In this document: positions 25,941 through 38,142 of the stretch, piece after piece
Layout: every line of letters begins with the position of its first letter
Position numbering within the stretch: the stretch's first letter is position 1
DNA from: Ancylobacter polymorphus
Lineage (GTDB): Bacteria > Pseudomonadota > Alphaproteobacteria > Rhizobiales > Xanthobacteraceae
Assembly (NCBI RefSeq): GCF_030813495.1
Contig: NZ_JAUSUI010000003.1
Span: forward strand, 310,001 to 374,000
DNA: 64,000 nucleotides
Direction of reading: 5' to 3'
Position numbers and translations under genes: made by a program
The notes under the pieces: model-generated
Database searches by the model: none
Told to the model about the DNA's origin: nothing
What the model saw: the letters and a program-made list of their open reading frames with translations, nothing else

Positions 25941-26004
25941 ATGTTGCCGCGATGTTACCGGCAACGGCGCTGCGGGGGCGTCGCGCGAATTTCGAGACGT
26001 GTTT

Positions 26005-27231
26005 ATGCGACGGTGCCTTGTGGGGATTGGTGGATCGGCCGGCTTGGCCCTGCTGGCGGGCCTTGCGCCGCAGGCGGCGTCCGCCGAGGAGATCAGTTGC
26101 GACCTCACCGTGACCGCCCTGCAGTGCGGCGGCGTGGCGAGCGGAGCCGATTCGACCGCGATCGGCGACGATGCGCAGGCGACGCAGGCCGGCACGACGG
26201 CCGTAGGCCAGGGGTCGCGCGCCTTTTCCGACAAGGCCAGCGCCTTCGGCCAGCTCGCCGTGGCCAATGGGGTGTCCTCCACCGCCATCGGCTGGAGCGC
26301 GACGGCCAATGGTGAGCAGTCGACCGCGACCGGGCAGGGAGCTGCCGCCAATGCCGGCTTCTCCTCGGCCTTCGGCAGCGGGGCGAGCGCCAACGGCACC
26401 GCGTCCTCCGCGCTCGGCCAGGACGCCCTCGCCAATGGCGCCAACGCGACCGCCGTCGGCCAGGGCGCGCGCGCCAATGCCGATGCGTCGACCGCTGTCG
26501 GGCAGGGCGCGGTCGCCAACGCCGGCAACGCGACCGCGCTGGGCACGGCGGCCACCGCCAATGGCGCCGGGGCCACCGCGCTGGGGAAGGGGGCCGTCGC
26601 CAATGCCGCCAACGCCACCGCCGTCGGTTTCGGCGCCACCGCCAATGGTGCTGGCGCCACGGCGCTGGGACAGAATGCCGTCGCCGCCGGGGCCGGTGCC
26701 GTTGCGTTGGGTCAGAACGCCAACGCCTCCGCCACGAACGCCGCCGCCCTTGGCACCGGCGCCATCGCTTCCTTTGCCGGTTCCACCGCCGTCGGTGCCG
26801 GCGCGTCCACCAGCCGGGCCAACCAGATGGCGCTGGGCACCGCCGGTTCGACCTATACGATGGCGGGGCTGACCTCGAGCGCCAGCCGGTCCGCTCAGAG
26901 CGGGGCGGTGCAGATCGTCACCACCGATGCCGTCGGCAATCTCGCCAGCGCGAGCACGGCGGAACTCTTCGACCTGCGCCCCGTCTGGGCCGAGATCGAC
27001 CGGGTGAGCGAAGGCGTTGCCATGGCGATGGCGATGGACACGCCGACCCTGCCCAATGGCAAGAACATGGCGGTGAGCGCCCAGTGGGGCACCTTCGGGG
27101 GGCAGAATGCGCTCGCGCTCTCCAGCATTGCGCGGATCGCCGACGATTCCTTCTTCGTCACCGGCGCCATCGGCGTAGGTTTCAACGAAGGCACGGTCGG
27201 CGGCAAGGCCGGCCTGCTGTTCGCGTGGTGA
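26005..27231 (+). CDS. YadA-like trimeric autotransporter adhesin
   Basis: A 408-residue outer-membrane protein. The signal peptide covers about residues 1-27 (APQAASAEE). Residues 49-266 are YadA-head repeats with a 14-residue period (forms such as ATAVGQGARANADA). They are followed by a neck/stalk with the ALGTAGSTYTMAGLTSSASR motif common in rhizobial members, a short helical segment (about 310-345) and a membrane-anchor region of about 65 residues ending in KAGLLFAW. The protein is short for the family. The ATG at 26005 was preferred to GTG 25999. A CtrA-type box lies upstream, and the next gene is close enough to be translationally coupled. Confidence 0.88.
   Translation: MRRCLVGIGGSAGLALLAGLAPQAASAEEISCDLTVTALQCGGVASGADSTAIGDDAQATQAGTTAVGQGSRAFSDKASAFGQLAVANGVSSTAIGWSATANGEQSTATGQGAAANAGFSSAFGSGASANGTASSALGQDALANGANATAVGQGARANADASTAVGQGAVANAGNATALGTAATANGAGATALGKGAVANAANATAVGFGATANGAGATALGQNAVAAGAGAVALGQNANASATNAAALGTGAIASFAGSTAVGAGASTSRANQMALGTAGSTYTMAGLTSSASRSAQSGAVQIVTTDAVGNLASASTAELFDLRPVWAEIDRVSEGVAMAMAMDTPTLPNGKNMAVSAQWGTFGGQNALALSSIARIADDSFFVTGAIGVGFNEGTVGGKAGLLFAW
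26149..26802 (+). repeat. 42-bp coding repeats of the adhesin head
   Basis: About fifteen degenerate 42-bp repeats encode the 14-residue head unit (consensus A-T-A-x-G-x-x-A-x-A-N-G-x-x). Several recurrent words, such as GCCAATGG, are nearly identical between units and could allow length change by recombination. Confidence 0.8.
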
Positions 27232-27236
27232 CGATC

Positions 27237-27863
27237 ATGCGCCGCCCCGCCCGCCTTGCCGTTCTTGCGCTCGCCCTGGCTCTGCTCGCGCCGGCTCTCG
27301 CCCACGCGCAGAAGAAGCCGGCCGATGCGATGCCGCCGCCGGCGGTGCTTCTGGCCCTGCTGCGCGGCACGATGATCGCGCTCAACCAGGCCAATTTGAC
27401 CGGCAATTATTCGGTGCTGCGCGATCTCGCGGCTCCCTCCTTCCGCGACGCCAATTCCAGTGCCGCGCTTGCCGACCGCTTCCGCCAGTGGCGTGAGGGC
27501 CGGCTGGATTTCGCCGCCGTCACCCTTCTCGACGCCAAGCTCTCGGCCCCGCCCTCCATCGGGGCCGATGGGGCACTGCGCCTGCGCGGCTATTTCCCGA
27601 CCGCGCCGCTGAGGATCGGCTTCGATGTGGCCTTCCTGCCCGTGGACGGGCATTGGCGTCTCGGGGCCATTACGGCCGAGCCGCTGGCGGTAGAGGTGAC
27701 AGGGGCCCTGGCGCGCGCCGCTGAAGCGCCGGCTGGGGGCCAGAAGATGGCGGAGGCTGAGCCGGCCAAAGCTAGGGCGACGACGACGTTCCGTCTGCCG
27801 GACCTTCCGCCCGCCGCGAGCCTCGGCATCGCGCTTCCCCCTGGCGATCGCCCGCGCGGCTAG
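27237..27863 (+). CDS. Exported protein of unknown function, adhesin-linked
   Basis: A 208-residue protein with a clear signal peptide ending near residue 25 (APALAHAQ). The mature part has LLALLRGTMIALNQANLTGN, then YSVLRDLAAPSFRDANS and LRGYFPTAPLRIGFDVAFLP, with GHWRLGAI. This looks like a compact periplasmic fold conserved in Rhizobiales, but I do not know its function. The ATG at 27237 lies 5 bp after the adhesin stop; GTG 27228 overlaps the stop as GTGA and is an alternative start. Close coupling to the adhesin suggests an accessory role. Confidence 0.72.
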   Translation: MRRPARLAVLALALALLAPALAHAQKKPADAMPPPAVLLALLRGTMIALNQANLTGNYSVLRDLAAPSFRDANSSAALADRFRQWREGRLDFAAVTLLDAKLSAPPSIGADGALRLRGYFPTAPLRIGFDVAFLPVDGHWRLGAITAEPLAVEVTGALARAAEAPAGGQKMAEAEPAKARATTTFRLPDLPPAASLGIALPPGDRPRG

Positions 27864-28007: not shown

Positions 28008-28931
28008 TCAGGGCTGAGGCGCGGGCACGGTCGGGTATCCTTCGAGCGGTGCGCTCGGCGCGCTTGGTCCGGTGTCGGCGGGCGCCGGCACGGACGGGGA
28101 CGCGGCGGGGGCTATGGTGCGCGCCGGTGCCGGCGGCGGCGCGGTGGCCGCGCCCGTGCCGAACACGGTCGAGGGATAGACGACCGGTCCGCCGACCCGG
28201 CCAAGCTCCGGCGCGACCGGGAGAGGGCGACCATAGGGTTGCCAGCTGCGTGGCAGGAAATAGCCATTGATGGTGTAGCGGTACATGATCCGCAGCAGCG
28301 CGGCTTCGCTGGCGCCGCTCTGGCAGAAGCGCAGACGCACCGACAAGACGCCACGATCCGCCGCCAATACGTTCATCCGTTGCTGGCCCTGAATGCGCTG
28401 CCAGGCGTAGAGGCAGAGGTCGCGTCCTTCTCCCGGCCCCACGGCGTAGCCGAAGGGTCCGTAGCGGTTCTGGACGAAATAGGTTGACGGGCGCAGGTCG
28501 ATGCCGGGCAGTGCCTGCTCCATCTCCTCCGCCAGGGCGTATTCGCTGAGGAAGCTGTCGTTCTTGATGTTCTCGGGGCCGGTTCGCCCTTCCACGGGGC
28601 CGAAAAACACGACGCTGAAGGCATTCTGGCCCGGCGTCGCCGCCTCGGTCGCCAGCATCACCTCCTGCTGCAGCGCATTGGCATAGCGCGTTTCGATCAC
28701 GCCGATGATGCGCGGGCCGCCGGGCTCTGGCAGCACCAGTGCCTCCACGGCGGGAACCTCGGCCGAAAGAGTGGCAACGACCGGCGGTCGGCCCGTCGTG
28801 CAGCCCCCCGCCAGCAGCAGGCAGCCCATGGCGAAGGCACCCCGACGCAAGCTTTTGGCGCTGGAATGTCCGAGGCGCGCAGCCGCGCGGCCTGCAGTGT
28901 CGCCTGTCGTTTCCTGGGGCGGGCGGGACAT
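28008..28931 (-). CDS. bcsN: Cellulose biosynthesis protein BcsN (putative lipoprotein)
   Basis: A 307-residue protein from the ATG at 28931; GTG-free ATG 28967 is possible but has no ribosome site. A hydrophobic segment ends in a lipobox-like LLLAGGC with Cys44, so it is probably a lipoprotein. The central region (VVFFGPVEGRTGPENIKNDS, RPSTYFVQNRYGPFGYAVG, CLYAWQRI) matches what I recall of the BcsN family found with bcsAB in Rhizobiales, whose role is not settled. The C-terminus is Pro/Ala-rich. It is divergent from bcsA with about 200 bp of shared upstream DNA before the inserted IS element. Confidence 0.8.
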   Translation of the reverse strand: MSRPPQETTGDTAGRAAARLGHSSAKSLRRGAFAMGCLLLAGGCTTGRPPVVATLSAEVPAVEALVLPEPGGPRIIGVIETRYANALQQEVMLATEAATPGQNAFSVVFFGPVEGRTGPENIKNDSFLSEYALAEEMEQALPGIDLRPSTYFVQNRYGPFGYAVGPGEGRDLCLYAWQRIQGQQRMNVLAADRGVLSVRLRFCQSGASEAALLRIMYRYTINGYFLPRSWQPYGRPLPVAPELGRVGGPVVYPSTVFGTGAATAPPPAPARTIAPAASPSVPAPADTGPSAPSAPLEGYPTVPAPQP

Positions 28932-29135
28932 GGCGGGCCTGTCAATCTCGCAAAACGAATCACGCATCGATGCAATCTAGCGCCCCAGCGCCGCGGCAGA
29001 AACGGTCAAAGATCGAACAAGATGTTAGCAGATGTGAGCGCGCGCCCATGACTTGTGTACCCGGGCGACTTGCGATCAGAGCACGTACCACGTAAGAGCC
29101 GCCGTAAGGGCGACTGCGGAGACCAGCCGAAAATT
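28932..29135. other. Original bcsN-bcsA divergent promoter region
   Basis: About 204 bp between the bcsN start and the original bcsA ATG at 29136. It includes an ACGTA-CC-ACGTA direct repeat near 29082-29093. No TTAA-N7-TTAA site or confident sigma-70 boxes were found. The insertion sequence now separates this promoter region from the bcsA body. Confidence 0.45.
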
Positions 29136-29147
29136 ATGAATAGAAAA
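29136..29147 (+). pseudogene. bcsA: Severed original 5' end of bcsA (codons 1-4)
   Basis: ATG AAT AGA AAA at 29136-29147 is followed at once by the IS left end. Joining it directly to 30202 (TGG GTG ACG) restores Met-Asn-Arg-Lys-Trp-Val-Thr-Gly in frame with BcsA. The last 8 bases, ATAGAAAA, are repeated at 30194-30201 as the target duplication. From this ATG, translation now runs into the IS and stops at 29465 in a frame different from the transposase. Confidence 0.88.
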
Positions 29148-30193
29148 GGCTCAATTCGCGTTAGCTATGCACGATCCGATTTGGTAGGCTGGCGATCTGC
29201 ACGCAGGAGGCGAAGGTGGACCGGCAAGACTACATGGCGTGGCTTTCGCAGATCGACGAACTCTCGGCGGAGCAGCGTGTGGAAGCCGGCCGGGCGCTGG
29301 CGGGCCAACCATCTCTGGAAGCTGTGGTCGGCCTGCTCGAAGAGCGGATTGGCGCGGAACGGCGCTGCCCTCACTGCACGGCGGAAGGGGCGGTCATTCG
29401 AGGCCAGTCCAACGGTCTGCGCCGCTATTTCTGCCGCGGCTGCGGCAAGACGTTCAACTGCCTGACCGGGACGCCGCTGGCGCGGCTGCGGTACAAGGAG
29501 CGCTGGACGGCATTCGGCGCTTCGATGAGCGAGGGCGAGACGGTGGCGGCCGCGGCCCAACGCTGCGGCGTCGCCGGCAGCACGGCTTTTCGGTGGCGGC
29601 ATCGCTTTCTGCGCGCGGTGAGCAGCGGAGTTGTCAAACTGCGCGGCATTGTTGAGGCCGATGAGACCTTTGTGCTGGCCAGCCGCAAAGGCGAGCGACA
29701 TCTCGATCGCAAACCCCGCAAGCGCGGCGGCAAGGCGTCCAAGCGAGGGCTGTCCGACGAACGGGTTCCCGTCCTGGTGGCCGCCGACCGATCCGGCTCC
29801 ACCGTCAGCGCCGTATTGCCGTCCGTCTGCGCCGCCGCGATCGAAGCCGTCCTTCGGCCCGTTCTTGGCAAGGACGCCCTGCTGGTCACCGACGGCTGCA
29901 CCAGCTATCCGCCTTGCGCCGCCGCGTTGGGCGTCAGCCATGAAGTGCTCAACCAGACCGCTGGCGAACGGATGCGTGGCGATCTCCACATTCAAACGGT
30001 CAACAGCCGCCATGAGCGCCTCAAGGACTTTCTCCGCCGCCACCGCGGGATCGCCACCAAATATCTCGACAGCTACCTGCGGTGGTATCACCTCGCTATC
30101 CTCCCGCGCGCTCCCTCACCGCGCGCGGTTCTCGCCGCCGCCGCGGGAATGCTGAATGTCAGGCCAGCGTGCATAGCTAATGCGAATTGAGCC
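29148..30193 (+). mobile_element. Insertion sequence, IS1595 family (ISXO2-like)
   Basis: A 1046-bp element with 26-bp terminal inverted repeats (29148-29173 and 30168-30193) that differ at one position and begin GGCTCAATTCGC. It is flanked by perfect 8-bp direct repeats ATAGAAAA (29140-29147 and 30194-30201), the duplication length usual for IS1595. It encodes one intact transposase. The intact ends and exact duplication indicate a recent insertion. Confidence 0.95.
29216..30190 (+). CDS. IS1595-family transposase
   Basis: A 324-residue transposase. The N-terminal zinc ribbon is CPHC (about residue 51) and CRGCGKTFNCLTGTPL; the ISXO2-like catalytic domain begins near residue 145 with GIVEADETFV, and further acidic and His positions appear in LLVTDGCTSYP and NSRHERLKDFLRRHRG. 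The GTG start at 29216 is preceded by AGGAGG. The TGA stop (30188-30190) lies inside the right inverted repeat and overlaps a TTG (30187-30189) that is in frame with bcsA. Confidence 0.93.
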   Translation: MDRQDYMAWLSQIDELSAEQRVEAGRALAGQPSLEAVVGLLEERIGAERRCPHCTAEGAVIRGQSNGLRRYFCRGCGKTFNCLTGTPLARLRYKERWTAFGASMSEGETVAAAAQRCGVAGSTAFRWRHRFLRAVSSGVVKLRGIVEADETFVLASRKGERHLDRKPRKRGGKASKRGLSDERVPVLVAADRSGSTVSAVLPSVCAAAIEAVLRPVLGKDALLVTDGCTSYPPCAAALGVSHEVLNQTAGERMRGDLHIQTVNSRHERLKDFLRRHRGIATKYLDSYLRWYHLAILPRAPSPRAVLAAAAGMLNVRPACIANAN

Positions 30194-32385
30194 ATAGAAA
30201 ATGGGTGACGGGTATCTGGGTAGTATTAATCGCCCTAGTCGCATTTATAGTGACCTTACCGGTTAACTTGCAGGCGCAGCTGGTTACCGGCTGTATAGTG
30301 ATTCTACTAATTGTATTTTTGAGAATGTTTGCGCCAGAGGGTGTGCCCCGCATGGTTGCACTCGCTCTGGGCGTAGCAATGGTATCAAGGTACGTGTATT
30401 GGCGGACGACGTCAACACTACCTCCGGTAGAAGAACTGGCGAATTTCATTCCCGCCGTACTGCTCTACGTCGCTGAAATGTACAGCGTCGCGCTTATGGC
30501 GCTCAGCCTTTTCGTGGTGTCGGCGCCCCAGCCCGCGCGCGTTGCGCCAGCGATCGAGCCCGGCAGCGAGCCGACCGTCGATATCTTCGTCCCGAGCTAT
30601 AATGAGGATGCGGGATTGCTGGCGACGACGCTGGCTGCCGCGATGGCGATCGACTACCCCCGCGACCGGTTCACCGTGTGGCTGCTCGACGATGGCGGGA
30701 CCGATCAAAAATGCGAACAGCACGATCTGGCGGCCGCGCGCGAAGCGCAGGAGCGGCGGGCGACGCTGACCCAGCTCTGCGAGGAGCTCGGGGTGAACTA
30801 TCTCACCCGTCCGCGCAACGAATTTGCCAAGGCCGGCAATCTCAACCACGGCCTCGCCCATTCGCATGGCGAACTCGTCGTCGTCTTCGATGCGGATCAT
30901 GCGCCGGCGCGCTCGTTCCTGCGCGAGACGGTGGGCTATTTCCACCAGGACCCGCGCCTGTTCCTCGTCCAGACGCCGCATTTCTTCATCAATCCCGATC
31001 CGGTTGAGCGCAGCCTCGGCACATGGCGCCGCATGCCGTCGGAAAACGAGATGTTCTATGGCGTCATCCAGCGCGGTCTCGACCGCTGGGGCGGCGCGTT
31101 CTTCTGCGGGTCGGCGGCGGTGCTCCGGCGCGAAGCGCTGCTGGAGACGGACGGTTTCGCCCATTCCTCGATCACCGAGGATTGCGAGACGGCGCTGTCG
31201 CTCCACGCGCGCGGCTGGCATAGCGTGTATGTGGACACGCCGCTCATTGCCGGGCTGCAGCCGGAGACGTTTGCCAATTTCATCGGCCAGCGTTCCCGCT
31301 GGGCGCAGGGCATGTACCAGATCCTTCGCTTCCACTTCCCGCTGTTCCGCTCGGGTCTGACGGTTGCGCAGCGTATCTGCTACATGTCCAGCATCCTGTT
31401 CTGGTTCTTCCCGATTTCGCGCGCGATCTTCCTGATCTCGCCTTTCTGCTACCTGTTCTTCTCGCTGGAGATATTCAATGGTTCCGGCGCGGAATTCATA
31501 GCCTATACGGCCGTTTATCTTCTCACCAATCTCTTCATCCAGAGCTATCTCTTCGGAAAATACCGCTGGCCGTGGTTTTCCGAGCTCTATGAATATATTC
31601 AGACGGTTTATCTTCTTCCGGCGCTTCTTTCCGTCATGATCGATCCGAAGAAGCCAACCTTCCGGGTGACGTCGAAGGGCGAGACGATTGACGAGAACCG
31701 CATCTCGGAAATCGGGATTCCGTTCTTCATCATCTTTGTCATCCAGATCGTCGCCGTGTTCGTGACGTTCTGGCGGATCGCCACCGAGCCTTACTCCGCC
31801 GACATCACCCTCGTCGTCGGTATCTGGAACCTGCTGAATCTCATCATCTCCGGCTGCGCGCTCGGCGTGGTGTCGGAGAAGGCGGTCAAGCGGCATAGCC
31901 AGCGCATGGCGATCAGCCGGCGATGCAACCTTCTGATCGACGGTGTCGAGGTGCCGGCCGTCATCGACGACGTGTCCATGGGCGGCTTGCGCGTGCGCAC
32001 GGAGCTTCCTCCGGAGGCTCAGGCGCGGCTCGGGATGCACGCCGTGGTGCGGCTGACGCCCCCGGACGAATGCATCAGCGACACGCTTCCCGTGCTGGTG
32101 CGCAACATCGCCCATGATGATGGCGTGATCGTTCTGGGGACCCAGTTCAACGCCAAGTGCGCCGCTCACTATCAGCTCATCGCCGATCTGATCTTCGCCG
32201 ATGCCGACGAATGGAAGAAGTTCCAGGAGGGGAGGCGGCGAAACCCGGGCGTTCTCAGAGGAACCGTGATGTTCGTGCTGATCGCGGGCTACCAGACCCT
32301 GCGCGGGCTCGCTTATGTCACGCTGCTGGAAAGACTGACGCGCCGTCTCGCGCCCGGCATGTTCGCGGGAGCGACGGGACGATGA
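30187..32385 (+). CDS. bcsA: Cellulose synthase catalytic subunit BcsA, start replaced by IS end
   Basis: A 732-residue inner-membrane glycosyltransferase polymerising UDP-glucose to beta-1,4-glucan. GT2 residues are DDG (168-170), DAD (235-237), TED (330-332) and QRSRW (368-372). About eight membrane helices surround this domain. A C-terminal PilZ domain (RMAISRR, then DDVSMGG, near residues 570-600) should bind cyclic di-GMP. The original ATG was cut off by an IS. The only upstream in-frame start is TTG 30187 in the IS right repeat, replacing Met-Asn with Met-Ser-His. It overlaps the transposase stop as TTGA. The stop overlaps bcsB by 4 nt. Confidence 0.88.
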   Translation: MSHRKWVTGIWVVLIALVAFIVTLPVNLQAQLVTGCIVILLIVFLRMFAPEGVPRMVALALGVAMVSRYVYWRTTSTLPPVEELANFIPAVLLYVAEMYSVALMALSLFVVSAPQPARVAPAIEPGSEPTVDIFVPSYNEDAGLLATTLAAAMAIDYPRDRFTVWLLDDGGTDQKCEQHDLAAAREAQERRATLTQLCEELGVNYLTRPRNEFAKAGNLNHGLAHSHGELVVVFDADHAPARSFLRETVGYFHQDPRLFLVQTPHFFINPDPVERSLGTWRRMPSENEMFYGVIQRGLDRWGGAFFCGSAAVLRREALLETDGFAHSSITEDCETALSLHARGWHSVYVDTPLIAGLQPETFANFIGQRSRWAQGMYQILRFHFPLFRSGLTVAQRICYMSSILFWFFPISRAIFLISPFCYLFFSLEIFNGSGAEFIAYTAVYLLTNLFIQSYLFGKYRWPWFSELYEYIQTVYLLPALLSVMIDPKKPTFRVTSKGETIDENRISEIGIPFFIIFVIQIVAVFVTFWRIATEPYSADITLVVGIWNLLNLIISGCALGVVSEKAVKRHSQRMAISRRCNLLIDGVEVPAVIDDVSMGGLRVRTELPPEAQARLGMHAVVRLTPPDECISDTLPVLVRNIAHDDGVIVLGTQFNAKCAAHYQLIADLIFADADEWKKFQEGRRRNPGVLRGTVMFVLIAGYQTLRGLAYVTLLERLTRRLAPGMFAGATGR

Positions 32386-34982
32386 AAGCGCTTCGTATTG
32401 GCCTGACCGGCGGTGTCCTCTTCACCGCCCTCTTCCTCGCGGTTGTCGGCGCGGCGGCAAAGCCACCGCCCGACACGCCGGCGAACGCGGCTGTCCCGAG
32501 CCGCGCCCCGATTGCGCCCGCCTATGACATCCCCGCCTTCGACATGCAGGGCGGTGAGGACTCGGAGGCTGAGCCGCTGGTGCTTCCCGCCCTCATGGGG
32601 CCGACCGGCGCTCCCTTCGGCATGACGCCGCCCGCGCCCGAAGGGGCGCCCCAGAGCGTGCCCGGTGGGGGATCGCCGGGCTCGGTGGCCCCGTTCCAGA
32701 TGGTGCCGGGTCGGCCTGTGGCCGCAGTCCCGGCGAAGATCGAACCGCCGGGCCCCAGAACCCCCGATCGCTTCATCGTCCCGGTGCCCCGTCTGAGACT
32801 GGAAGGGGAGTCGGTCTCGCGCGGCTGGGTGACCTGGTTCACGCAGCAGGAGGTGGAGCGCCCGGCCACGCTGCTCATCGGCTATCTCAACGCCATCTAT
32901 GTGATGCCGGAACGCTCGCGCCTGAGGGTCACCATCAACGGCCAGCTTGTGGCGGAGATTCCGATCGCCTCGCCGCAGGGGCCGACCCAGGTGACGGCAG
33001 CCATTCCTGCCGGTGTGCTCCGTTCGGGCGGTAATCTCATCCGCATCGACATGCTGGCGGTGCACCGCACCGATTGCTCCATCGAATCCACCTACGACCT
33101 CTGGGTGGAACTCGACAATGCGCTGACCGGCGTGGCGTTCGGAGGCGGTCCCGTGCCGCCGCCCGTCATGGTCGATGATCTTCCCGCCGTTGGGGTCGAT
33201 GCGAGGGGATCAACCCATATTCGCTTCATCCACAGTGGGCCGATCGAGCCCCACCATAGCGCGCATTTCCTGGCGGCCGCCCAGGCCCTCACCCAGCGCG
33301 GGAGCTACTCGCATCCGGTTGTCTCGATCGTGGGGCCGAATGTCGGTCCGGCCGAGCCGGGGACCTTGAACGTCGTGGTGGGCATGGCGGAAGACCTGCG
33401 CGCCGTGATGGCCAGTCCGCCCGCCCTTATGGGTGGCCAGCCGCTGGTGCGCTTTTTCAACGATAACCGTGCGGGCGGCACCGTTCTCGTGCTGGGGGGA
33501 GAGACCGCGCGGAGCGTGGACGCCGCGATTGAGCGCCTCGCCGCCAGCAGCAGCCAGTCCGAACCTAGTAAGCTGTCGATTTCCAGCCGCTTCGCGCCGG
33601 ACGCGCCCTACTTCACCGGCGCGGGCAGCGTCCGTTTCTCCGAATTGGGGGTGATGACGCAGGAGTTTTCCGGCCGCCGGCTGCAACTGCGCTTTCCGAT
33701 CGGCCTTCCCGCCGATTTCTACGGTTCCGCCAATGGCCAGGCACGCATTCTGCTGGACGCGGCCTATGCGCCGAGCGTGCGGCCCGGAAGCCAGCTGTCG
33801 GTCTATGTGAATGGTTCGCTGGCGTCTTCCTACATGCTCACCGATCGGCATGGCGGGTTGATGGAGCGGAAGGTCATCAAGGTTCCGCTGACGCATTTCC
33901 GGGCCGGGCTCAACCGGGTCTGGATCGAAGTGATGCTGGATGTCGACAGCGACCGGATCTGCGGTCCCGGCGCGACGCTGGAGCGTGACAAGCGCTTTGT
34001 CGTCTTCGACTCCAGCGAGTTCGTGATGGACAGTTTCGCCAGGATCGGCACGAGCCCCAATCTGGCGGCGTTTTTCGGCGGCGGCTTCCCGTACTTCAAC
34101 GCCGCGCAGCCTATTGCGGTGGTGATGCGCCAGGATACGCCGACGGTTGCGGCCGCCGCGACGATCATGGCGCGGCTGTCCTTTGCGCAGGAACACATAG
34201 CCCCTGTCGACACGTCGCCGCCGCCGGCATCGCTCGCCAGCCGGCCGGTCCTGTTCATCGGGGAGATCAACCAGATCGCACCCGAAGTGCTGCGGCAGGT
34301 GGGTGTGGTGGATGCCAGCAAGATCCGCTGGCGCACCGATCGGGACGCCGACAAGGGCGCGCGAGGCCCGGCGCCCGTCTTCTGGGATGGAGGCGCTACA
34401 CTGCCGCCGGAGCCGATGCCGATGCTGGAGCAGGGTGTCCGCGTACGCTCCGGCTCGGGCAACGACGCCATCTTTGACCGCTGGCGGGATCAGGTCGCGG
34501 CAGGAAGCAACATAAGCGCCGAGTTGCTCCACTTTCAGAAATGGCTCACCGGCACGTTCGGTGTGTCTTTCGGCATGCCCAATGGCGGCGATGTCGAGCC
34601 GTTCAATCCCCCGCACAACACCTCGGTCCTGGTGGCGCAGGGTTTTGCCCCGAACAGTGACGCGGTCTGGACGCTCATTGCCGGGCATACGGCGGAGAGC
34701 TTCGATGCCGCCATCGATGAGTTCACCCTGCCGGAGTTCTGGGCGAAGAGTTATGGTCAGGCGTTGGCGTTCGACGCCGCGACCGGCCGGTTGGACATTC
34801 GCATGCCGAGCAGCGTGCGGTTCATCGTGACCCAGCCGCTGGGCCCGTCCAACCTCCGGCTCATCGCGGCCAATTGGCTGTCGCTCAATATTGTCACTTA
34901 CGCGCTGGTTCTCGTTTTATGCTGTATCGCCTTCGCCATCGTCGCCAGCCTGCTGCTTCGCCGCACGGGGCGGCGCGCCTGA
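32382..34982 (+). CDS. bcsB: Cellulose synthase regulatory/periplasmic subunit BcsB
   Basis: An 866-residue protein with an N-terminal signal segment (GGVLFTALFLAVVGAAA), a long Pro-rich linker (about residues 27-125), then the carbohydrate-binding and flavodoxin-like repeats of BcsB (SRGWVTWFTQQEVERPATLL, HRTDCSIESTYDLWVELDN, and ERDKRFVVFDSSEF). It ends with one C-terminal membrane helix (YALVLVLCCIAFAIVASLLL) that packs on BcsA. It guides the nascent glucan through the periplasm. The ATG at 32382 overlaps the bcsA stop as ATGA. Confidence 0.92.
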   Translation: MKALRIGLTGGVLFTALFLAVVGAAAKPPPDTPANAAVPSRAPIAPAYDIPAFDMQGGEDSEAEPLVLPALMGPTGAPFGMTPPAPEGAPQSVPGGGSPGSVAPFQMVPGRPVAAVPAKIEPPGPRTPDRFIVPVPRLRLEGESVSRGWVTWFTQQEVERPATLLIGYLNAIYVMPERSRLRVTINGQLVAEIPIASPQGPTQVTAAIPAGVLRSGGNLIRIDMLAVHRTDCSIESTYDLWVELDNALTGVAFGGGPVPPPVMVDDLPAVGVDARGSTHIRFIHSGPIEPHHSAHFLAAAQALTQRGSYSHPVVSIVGPNVGPAEPGTLNVVVGMAEDLRAVMASPPALMGGQPLVRFFNDNRAGGTVLVLGGETARSVDAAIERLAASSSQSEPSKLSISSRFAPDAPYFTGAGSVRFSELGVMTQEFSGRRLQLRFPIGLPADFYGSANGQARILLDAAYAPSVRPGSQLSVYVNGSLASSYMLTDRHGGLMERKVIKVPLTHFRAGLNRVWIEVMLDVDSDRICGPGATLERDKRFVVFDSSEFVMDSFARIGTSPNLAAFFGGGFPYFNAAQPIAVVMRQDTPTVAAAATIMARLSFAQEHIAPVDTSPPPASLASRPVLFIGEINQIAPEVLRQVGVVDASKIRWRTDRDADKGARGPAPVFWDGGATLPPEPMPMLEQGVRVRSGSGNDAIFDRWRDQVAAGSNISAELLHFQKWLTGTFGVSFGMPNGGDVEPFNPPHNTSVLVAQGFAPNSDAVWTLIAGHTAESFDAAIDEFTLPEFWAKSYGQALAFDAATGRLDIRMPSSVRFIVTQPLGPSNLRLIAANWLSLNIVTYALVLVLCCIAFAIVASLLLRRTGRRA

Positions 34983-36073
34983 TGGCGCGCTTGATGGCGC
35001 GTTTGGGCCGCGGTGCCGGCGTCGCCGCCGCCATGCTGGTGGCGGCGGCGTGTCTCGTCGCGCCGGGCGCCTTCGCAAAGGAGCCGGCCGGCATGATCTC
35101 CCGCGACGACTGGGCCGCCTATTCCGCACGCTTCGTCGATCCCAGCGGCCGGGTCATCGATGACGCGAACGGCCGTATCAGCCATTCCGAAGGGCAGGGC
35201 TATGGCATGCTGCTCGCCTATCTCGCCGGCGACAAGGCGGGCTTCGAGCGGATATGGACCTTTACCCGTACCGAACTGCTGATCCGCGACGACGGCCTCG
35301 CGGCCTGGCGCTGGGACCCGGAGGCGGATCCGCACGTCACCGATATCAATGCCGCCAGCGACGGCGACATTCTCATCGCTTATGCGCTCGCGCTCGCGGG
35401 GGAGGCGTGGAGCGTGCCGGACTATGTGAGCAGCGCGACCCGCATCGCGCGGGCGCTCGGCCAGCAGGTGGTGCGGCGTGAGGCCGGGCGGCTCGTGCTG
35501 CTGCCGGGCGTCACCGGCTTCTCGGTCGGCGAGCGGCCGGATGGGCCGGTGCTGAACCTGTCCTATTGGATCTTCGAGGCCTTTCCGGTCCTTGCCCGGC
35601 TCGCGCCTGAAGTCGACTGGGCGGGTCTTGCCGCCTCCGGCCGGGAACTGCTGTCCCTCGCCCGCCTCGGCCCGGCCAAGCTGCCGCCAGACTGGATTTC
35701 CGCGCCGGCCGGTCGCCCGCTGGCGCCGGCCGACGGTTTCGAACCGGTCTTTGGTTACAATTCGTTAAGGATAGTTCTTTACCTTCTGCGCGCCGGTATC
35801 CCCGACTCCGACGTTCAAAAAGCCATTCTCAACAATTGGATGGTGCAGAATGGGGGAATGCCGGCGATCGTGAATATCCCGACCGGCAAGGCCCTGGCCC
35901 GGCTGTCGGAGCCCGGCTACCGGATGCTGGCGGCAACGCTGGCCTGTGCGATCGACGGCACGGCGATTCCGGCAGATCTCAGGCGCCTGCAACCGAGCCA
36001 GTACTACCCGTCGACCCTTTATCTCCTAAGCCTGTCGCTGGTGAGTGAGAAATATCCGACATGTCTTCGCTGA
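34982..36073 (+). CDS. bcsZ: Cellulase BcsZ, glycoside hydrolase family 8
   Basis: A 363-residue periplasmic endo-beta-1,4-glucanase found in most bcs operons. The signal peptide ends near residue 32 (VAPGAFAKE). The catalytic acid Glu70 is in SEGQGYGMLLAY, and the conserved Asp pair follows in NAASDGDILIAYAL (Asp127, Asp129); LNLSYWIFEAFPVLA and GFEPVFGYNSLRIVLYLLRA are further family blocks. The ATG at 34982 overlaps the bcsB stop; ATG 34994 is an alternative. The gene end overlaps the TPR gene by 13 nt. Confidence 0.92.
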   Translation: MARLMARLGRGAGVAAAMLVAAACLVAPGAFAKEPAGMISRDDWAAYSARFVDPSGRVIDDANGRISHSEGQGYGMLLAYLAGDKAGFERIWTFTRTELLIRDDGLAAWRWDPEADPHVTDINAASDGDILIAYALALAGEAWSVPDYVSSATRIARALGQQVVRREAGRLVLLPGVTGFSVGERPDGPVLNLSYWIFEAFPVLARLAPEVDWAGLAASGRELLSLARLGPAKLPPDWISAPAGRPLAPADGFEPVFGYNSLRIVLYLLRAGIPDSDVQKAILNNWMVQNGGMPAIVNIPTGKALARLSEPGYRMLAATLACAIDGTAIPADLRRLQPSQYYPSTLYLLSLSLVSEKYPTCLR

Positions 36074-38142
36074 GGGTGCTTTTGCTGATCCTGGTCGGGG
36101 CGGCCGCCGTCCCGGCCATCGGCCAGCAACTCGCCTCGCCCTCTGAGAATGGCGCCGCTCCTGCCGGCGCCGCCACGACGCCGAAAGTCGACGAATCGGC
36201 GCTGCGCTTTTTCGCCGCCCAAGGCGACAAGCAGCGGCTGGACGCCGAAATTGCACGGCTGCGGGCGCTTTATCCGAACTGGCAGCCGCCCAAGGACCTG
36301 TTTTCCCCGACGCCGGACCAGGACCCCGACATTCCGCGCTTGTGGGCGCTGTTTGCCGAAGGGAAGTTCTCCGACATCAGGGCCGCCATCGCCCAGCGTC
36401 AGGCGTCGGAGCCGGGCTGGCAGCCGCCGGCCGATCTGATGGAGCGGCTCGACGAGGGCGAGGCCGCCCGCCGGCTGGTCAATGCCTCGGAGGCCAAGCA
36501 ATGGGCTTCCGTCCTGCGCATCGCCACCGACACGCCCGGCATGCTCGTCTGCGCCAATATGGACGTGCTCTGGCGCGTGGCGGAAGCCTTCGTGCGGACC
36601 GGCACTCCCCAGCGCGCCAAGGATCTGTTCATTTATATCCTGACCTCCTGCCCCAATCCGCAGGAGCGCGTCGCCACGGCGCAGAAGGCGCTGCAACTGC
36701 TCGACGGTCCCGATCTCGACGCGGTGCTCGCCCGCGCCAATCCCGATAACACGCCCGAATTCGCCGGCCTGCGCGAAGACCTCCTGCGCATGCGTGTCGG
36801 CCGCGCCGCGCAGGATACGACGCTGTCGGTATCGCCCGGCGACATCGCGGCGCTGGAGCAACTGGCCCGCAATGGATCGGTTGCCGACGATGCGCTGGTG
36901 CTCGGCTGGTACGCCTTCCGTCGCGGCGACGCGGCGCGAGCGGTCGACTGGTTCAAGCTGGCGCTGGACCGGCAGGGCGGGGCCTCGGCGGCCGAGGGCT
37001 ATGTGCTGGCGCTCGCCGCCACCGGCCGCGCCCAGGAGGCGGAACCGATCGCCTATCAGTGGCGCGATGCCGGGGCGAGCAACCGCAAGGCCTATATCGA
37101 CCTCATGGCGGGCCTGCTGGCCACGGCGCCGCCGCCGCGCCTCGAACAGTCGGTCGTCGCCCGGTTCGCCCCGGTCGTGCAGGAGGCGAAATCCGCCACC
37201 GGGGCGCAGGCGCTGGGCTGGTACGCCTATAATACCGGGCAGATCCGCACCGCAGCCTCCTGGTTCCGTACCGCCGTGCAATGGGCGCCGGCGGACGAGG
37301 TGTCCGCCTATGGGCTGGCGCTTGTCAGCCAGCGGCTGAAGGACACCGCGACCCTTGACGCCATCGCCGCCAGCTGGGCGGGGAAGTCCGAGCGCATCCT
37401 GGCGCTGGTCTCGCCCGCCGCCCGCCGCCGGCTGGCGAGCCGTGCGCCGGCTATTGCCTCACAGCCGGCCCCGATCTCGCAGCCGACGCCTATGCCCGTC
37501 AGCCGGCCGACGGCCGCGACCGCCGCGCCCCTGCCGCTCAATGGAGCCTTGCCGGACAGGCTGGCCGGATACGAAGACGGCCCGGCCTCCGGTGCTTCCG
37601 CCCCCCGCGGTGCGCCGTGTTCCAGCGCCGGCGATGCGGCGTTCCGTGCCGGCCGCGTGTCACCCGAAGAGGGCCTCGCGCGCGGCTGGTGCCTGCTTGA
37701 GCTGAACCGTCCCCTTGAAGCCATCAACGCCTTCGACATCGCCGTCCGCGACGGCGCCGGCCGGACGGCCGAAGACGCGGCCTATGGCAAGTCGCTGGCC
37801 TATATGCGGCTCGGCCTGACCAACGAGGCCCAGGTGGCCGCGATCGAGACGCCCCAGCCCCCGGCACGGGCGGTGACGCTGAGCGCCGACCTGCTCGCCC
37901 AGCGGGCGATCGCCGCCTATCGCGATGCCCGCTATGTCGAGGCGATCCTGGCGCTCGACGAGCGCAGCCGCCTCGCCCCGGAGCAGCAGGACCTGATGTC
38001 GATCCGTGCCTGGTCCTACTACCATCTCCGCGACTTCGTCTCCGCCCGGCGCATTTTCACCGCGCTCCGGGACGCCGGCTATCCCGAAGCCGGCGCCGGC
38101 ATCGATGCCATCCTGGCGGTGACCCGCCAGGTCCGCAGCTGA
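36061..38142 (+). CDS. TPR-repeat protein of the cellulose operon
   Basis: A 693-residue exported protein with a signal peptide to about residue 21 (AVPAIGQQ). The body is built of Ala-rich helical repeats of tetratricopeptide type (for example residues 275-330 and 380-420, with LGWYAFRRGDAARAVDWFKL and LGWYAYNTGQIRTAASWFRT). A Pro-rich linker (about 470-500) separates a second TPR group. No C-terminal beta-barrel like that of BcsC can be seen, so it probably supplies only the periplasmic scaffold. It overlaps bcsZ by 13 nt and is the last gene of the operon. Confidence 0.75.
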   Translation: MSSLRVLLLILVGAAAVPAIGQQLASPSENGAAPAGAATTPKVDESALRFFAAQGDKQRLDAEIARLRALYPNWQPPKDLFSPTPDQDPDIPRLWALFAEGKFSDIRAAIAQRQASEPGWQPPADLMERLDEGEAARRLVNASEAKQWASVLRIATDTPGMLVCANMDVLWRVAEAFVRTGTPQRAKDLFIYILTSCPNPQERVATAQKALQLLDGPDLDAVLARANPDNTPEFAGLREDLLRMRVGRAAQDTTLSVSPGDIAALEQLARNGSVADDALVLGWYAFRRGDAARAVDWFKLALDRQGGASAAEGYVLALAATGRAQEAEPIAYQWRDAGASNRKAYIDLMAGLLATAPPPRLEQSVVARFAPVVQEAKSATGAQALGWYAYNTGQIRTAASWFRTAVQWAPADEVSAYGLALVSQRLKDTATLDAIAASWAGKSERILALVSPAARRRLASRAPAIASQPAPISQPTPMPVSRPTAATAAPLPLNGALPDRLAGYEDGPASGASAPRGAPCSSAGDAAFRAGRVSPEEGLARGWCLLELNRPLEAINAFDIAVRDGAGRTAEDAAYGKSLAYMRLGLTNEAQVAAIETPQPPARAVTLSADLLAQRAIAAYRDARYVEAILALDERSRLAPEQQDLMSIRAWSYYHLRDFVSARRIFTALRDAGYPEAGAGIDAILAVTRQVRS

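Follow-up and report, generated by a model that had tools for sequence, protein, structure and literature searches.

The window analysed here, a 64,000-nucleotide stretch of the Ancylobacter polymorphus genome, carries an ordinary type IIIb cellulose cluster, the sole one in the genome, with Pfam matches for bcsN, bcsA, bcsB, bcsZ and the TPR gene (bcsK) in that order. The divergent bcsN (28008-28967, minus strand; Pfam CBP_BcsN, 7.7e-64), a cellulose-biosynthesis gene of type III operons, is 96% identical in the closest genome and is unaffected by the event described below. The bcsA body (30202-32385, plus strand) is intact and encodes glycosyltransferase 2 and PilZ domains with their catalytic and PilZ motifs (DDG, DAD, TED, QRSRW, RHSQR and DVSMGG), and its product matches the solved BcsA (4hg6) and related structures at 1e-186. 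On the same strand follow bcsB (32382-34982), whose start overlaps the bcsA stop as ATGA (32382-32385) in eight of eight genomes; bcsZ (34982-36073, probable start ATG at 34982), assigned to glycosyl hydrolase family 8 by Pfam and overlapping bcsB as TGATG (34980-34984) in the window; and the bcsK-type TPR gene (36061-38142), which overlaps the end of bcsZ by 13 nt. These overlaps suggest that translational coupling is native to the cellulose operon. A search for a backup cellulose synthase returned none, the other matches in the genome being GT2 proteins about 26-28% identical. Beside bcsN, in eight of eight genomes, lie a YadA-head/anchor (trimeric autotransporter adhesin-like) gene and a gene for a secreted-looking protein (together 25999-27860), the latter without a Pfam match; this neighbourhood is suggestive of an adhesin-cellulose module. 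The type IIIb arrangement is as described for Starkeya sp. N1B (PMC6559018).

An insertion sequence of 1046 bp (29148-30193, plus strand) splits bcsA after codon 4. The native ATG (29136-29138) is stranded to its left within ATG-AAT-AGA-AAA (29136-29147, plus strand), and is now the first codon of a chimeric frame of 109 codons that stops at 29465. Copies of the target-site duplication ATAGAAAA flank the element at 29140-29147 and 30194-30201, matching at eight of eight positions, and its 26-nt terminal inverted repeats, which begin GGCTCAATTCGC..., match at 25 of 26 (left, 29148-29173, plus strand; right, 30168-30193, minus strand). Deleting the element and one duplicate in silico yields ATGAATAGAAAATGG, and the closest genome, that of a sister species (G013) with a 97% identical BcsA, has at this site exactly ATGAATAGAAAA followed by TGG, without the insertion sequence. 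The initial annotation had placed an IS1595 element after codon 4 and held that removing it with one duplicate restores ATG-AAT-AGA-AAA-TGG; the repeats, the duplicates and the empty site in G013 bear out both statements. Its further claim that bcsA has lost its native start is equally sound, the ATG now being separated from the coding sequence by the element.

The ancestral state extends across the genus. Among 30 genomes, one per species, 29 have a full-length bcsA (the window genome counted), and the start predicted for relatives is present: it is identical in G013, and in 28 of the 28 other bcsA genes an ATG lies exactly four codons ahead of the position homologous to Trp5. Synteny with G013 and another six genomes extends over both flanks of the insertion, and the order YadA-like gene, bcsN, bcsA, bcsB, bcsZ, bcsK and malic enzyme is kept in the compared relatives within the stretches fetched. 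The exact duplication and the synteny on both sides rule out misassembly; the insertion is therefore real. No insertion sequence occupies this position of bcsA elsewhere among the 30 genomes, and the element was not found in the other genus genomes with bcsA, except for a 47-bp partial match in G007. On the sequences compared, the insertion is specific to the window lineage among the genomes seen, and it is most likely of recent date. The start of bcsA is a pocket of 42% G+C in a window of 67% G+C, which is sufficient to account for the choice of target.

Membership of the IS1595 family, as proposed in the initial annotation, is confirmed by the transposase and by a full-length match to a named member. 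The transposase gene (29216-30190, plus strand; 324 aa) runs from a GTG start to a TGA stop (30188-30190) inside the right repeat, and its product has an ISXO2-like transposase domain (Pfam DDE_Tnp_IS1595, 1.3e-16, 61.4 bits against a cut-off of 27). Terminal repeats beginning GG and an A/T-rich duplication of about 8 bp complete the pattern, which recurs in the relatives. ISOar1 (IS1595; Octadecabacter arcticus plasmid NC_020909.1), the nearest named relative found, has 75.3% DNA identity over 100% of the length. It shares the GGCTCAATTCGC... repeats and the right end GAATTGAGCC and is flanked by its own 8-bp duplication, TATATCTT; unlike the element in the window, from which it diverges by about 25%, its annotated transposase stop lies 17 nt before the end of the element and not in TTGA. 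A/T-rich 8-bp target duplications are also described for ISApl4, of the same family, which differs in its length of 712 bp, its placement in the IS1016 group and its repeats (PMC12561309).

The left end of the element occurs once more at the edge of contig C10 (G000:C10), beside TTTTTTAA, so the genome holds more than one copy; no right end matching it was found in the assembly. Both target sites, in bcsA and on C10, are A/T-rich. Together with the intact transposase frame, the second left end hints that the copy in bcsA may be active. On C10, the left end (L002, 1-1593) adjoins apparent IS630- and IS66-type transposase debris. The presence of more than one copy would also fit an insertion that arose in culture, in part of the population, an origin compatible with any functional reading of the locus. 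According to the passage on the subject in PMC13068021, cellulose-negative mutants of other genera arise in agitated culture, sometimes through insertion sequences. The assembly, however, gives one consensus, with the element at the site, and we consider such an origin unlikely.

The region that precedes bcsA in its relatives is preserved. The native bcsN-bcsA intergenic region (28968-29135, plus strand) still stands upstream of the element, and the blocks that an eight-genome alignment finds conserved in it (GGCAGAAACGGTCAAAGATCGAACAAGAT, CTTGCGA...ACGTAAGAGCC and a GGAG Shine-Dalgarno sequence) all lie upstream of the insertion, intact and co-oriented with bcsA; the native GGAG and ATG are likewise still in place before the element. 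Between 28900 and 30500, no intrinsic terminator was found on the plus strand and no promoter was found by a consensus scan limited to sigma-70-like promoters; within the same limits, neither a hybrid promoter nor an intrinsic terminator was detected at the junction. No structured RNA in the window matched Rfam. With an intact, co-oriented upstream region and no sign of an intrinsic terminator on the way, the native transcript could, barring Rho-dependent termination within the element, continue across the transposase gene as far as bcsA. For the same reasons, the earlier proposal that bcsA has lost its own promoter is not supported. The conserved intergenic blocks of the window's group (AACGGTCAAAGATCGAACAAGAT and CTTGCGA...ACGTAAGAGCC) have a counterpart in many more distant species of the genus, which share another block, GGTGGAATCGA...GGATAGATTTCCTCAACCTCT...TTAAGACAC; the two sets point to two regulatory schemes for one operon.

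Beyond the element, the bcsA frame is open from a TTG at 30187 to the stop at 32383-32385, a span of 732 aa. This TTG (30187-30189, plus strand), the first in-frame restart candidate, shares its TG with the transposase stop at 30188-30190. The overlap noted in the initial annotation is thus exact and has the -4 (NTGA) geometry, within the -4 to +3 nt range of coupled pairs. The second candidate is the GTG of codon 6 (30205-30207, plus strand), 14 nt past the transposase stop and within reinitiation distance of it. The transposase frame is translated right up to the junction, leaving no untranslated gap before bcsA. Shine-Dalgarno energies separate these starts: the AGGAGG of the transposase is strong (-10.7 kcal/mol) and the native bcsA start moderate (-6.6 kcal/mol), and the TTG and GTG, at -1.7 and -1.9 kcal/mol against a median of -3.1 kcal/mol for random 20-mers, have essentially none. 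For coupling, NTGA ranks with the most efficient spacings; a Shine-Dalgarno sequence before the downstream start, absent at the TTG, influences efficiency (PMC12548453) without being obligatory. A better-equipped start lies farther inside the gene, at ATG 30352 (codon 55), where a Shine-Dalgarno-like GAGGG gives an energy of -8.0. Initiation there would delete both N-terminal membrane segments predicted from the sequence, in a protein whose alignment with the solved BcsA (4hg6) reaches back to residue 10 of the TTG frame. Such a shortened BcsA is unlikely to function, and we regard this restart as highly improbable. A start near the natural N-terminus of BcsA would most plausibly be reached by reinitiation behind the transposase.

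The stop/start overlap itself is not a product of the insertion. In a relative from a Methylocystaceae metagenome-assembled genome (L040; 89% protein identity, exactly 1046 bp, duplication CAATTTAA), the transposase stop likewise lies inside the right end GAATTGAGCC, and in a 60% relative (L045) it lies inside a TTGAGCC repeat end; the TTGA thus belongs to the element. In other IS1595 elements the end reads GACATAGCC and the stop, a TAG, lies two bases short of it, so a stop within the repeat is common in the family. In four relatives that were checked, the frame from the TTG runs 4, 50, 27 and 16 codons into the flank, and thus none of them extends a long host frame. The initial annotation was right that a TTGA overlap joins the transposase to bcsA and mistaken that the insertion created it, the overlap being built into the right repeat; an in-frame restart is accordingly a roughly one-in-six outcome of orientation and phase. 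Coupling between transposase and bcsA is plausible, but the case for it is weaker than first claimed, given an overlap generic to the element and a start lacking a ribosome-binding site.

The same two features also speak for a plain knock-out, in which the insertion would have abolished BcsA, leaving the strain cellulose-negative and the TTGA an irrelevant property of the element's end. Insertions of IS1031 in bcs genes that abolish cellulose are also documented, according to the passage in PMC13068021. Against a plain knock-out, a route for some synthesis is left, since element and gene are co-oriented, the junction is in frame and the sequence is translated as far as that point, and the downstream coding sequences are intact, though a recent event would look alike. 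We hold a complete knock-out to be a doubtful but serious possibility.

No sign of relaxed selection was seen on bcsA, bcsB, bcsZ or bcsK. The dN/dS of bcsA against G013 is 0.075, compared with 0.04-0.09 for other species pairs, and polarised changes number 5 nonsynonymous and 24 synonymous in the window lineage and 8 and 28, respectively, in the sister lineage. This absence of decay fits a recent insertion and retained function alike, without telling one from the other. At codon 6, bcsA has GTG in the window, TTT in G013 and CTT in six other genomes; the two substitutions adjoin the junction and make a possible start codon. With the operon intact, this might reflect an adaptive rewiring in which the operon is maintained on transcription from the element and translation of the transposase, with the GTG as a compensatory start. 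Yet, of the 727 codons compared between the window and G013, five differ by two changes, codon 6 among them, and chance is adequate to explain it; orientation and phase are the one-in-six outcome noted above; there is no selection signal; and the arrangement occurs in one genome only. Adaptive rewiring is thus very unlikely in our judgement.

Collectively, we think it probable, though well short of certain, that a recent insertion has left bcsA with weak reinitiation behind the transposase, BcsA sharply lowered and cellulose strongly reduced or absent. An IS1595-family, ISOar1-like element would have transposed recently into the AT-rich start of bcsA and parted the coding sequence from its Shine-Dalgarno sequence and ATG. 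Because the native region, the transposase gene and bcsA are all co-oriented, transcription from the native region, the transposase promoter or both may run through the element into bcsA. Ribosomes finishing the transposase at 30190 may then sometimes restart, either at TTG 30187, giving a nearly unchanged BcsA that begins MSHRKW... instead of MNRKW..., or at GTG 30205, giving a BcsA short of five residues. The element would in this way become the first link of the coupled bcs chain. As the restart has neither a Shine-Dalgarno sequence nor an ATG, BcsA, and with it the coupled BcsB, BcsZ and BcsK, would probably reach a small fraction of their normal level, so cellulose would be strongly reduced or absent under ordinary conditions; a weak bcsA restart should lower BcsB too. 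Two points count against weak reinitiation: bcsA would show the same purifying selection after an insertion that is simply too recent, and the sigma-70 scan found no promoter.

The arrangement has a practical side, as bcsA, read from the TTG, may be annotated as intact although its native start is in fact lost. It also raises the idea, which we consider quite unlikely, that the ready-made NTGA in the right repeat of TTGAGCC-ended IS1595 elements puts host genes under the translational control of the transposase. Such control would require the element to insert close to a gene start and in the orientation of that gene, and would then arise in one phase of three; if it operated here, cellulose output would track transposase translation.

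Three known systems frame the locus. The operon of Starkeya sp. N1B likewise has bcsN divergent from bcsABZK and a PilZ domain in BcsA; unlike that of the window, it is intact and makes cellulose (PMC6559018). Native gene pairs coupled through NTGA have the same four-base stop/start overlap (-4 nt) as transposase and bcsA (PMC12548453, PMC10666635). In the window, by contrast, a transposase gene takes the upstream place and the downstream start is a TTG lacking a Shine-Dalgarno sequence; the coupling is putative. The closest precedent lies in Komagataeibacter, where IS1031 insertions in the bcs operon abolish cellulose (Coucheron; Hur et al., cited in PMC13068021). As that passage has it, there too an insertion sequence interrupts the cellulose operon, once within bcsA itself, and the cases differ in the family of the element, in their selection in agitated culture and in yielding cellulose-negative cells; the passage mentions no in-frame restart, and for the window a reduction or loss of cellulose is a prediction. 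Loss of cellulose genes to insertion sequences is thus already known, and to it the window adds a well-supported case of an insertion sequence capturing the start of cellulose synthase, documented by comparison with a sister species that keeps the empty site. The case also offers a clean natural test of the capacity of a stop/start overlap inside such an element to keep a disrupted operon alive.
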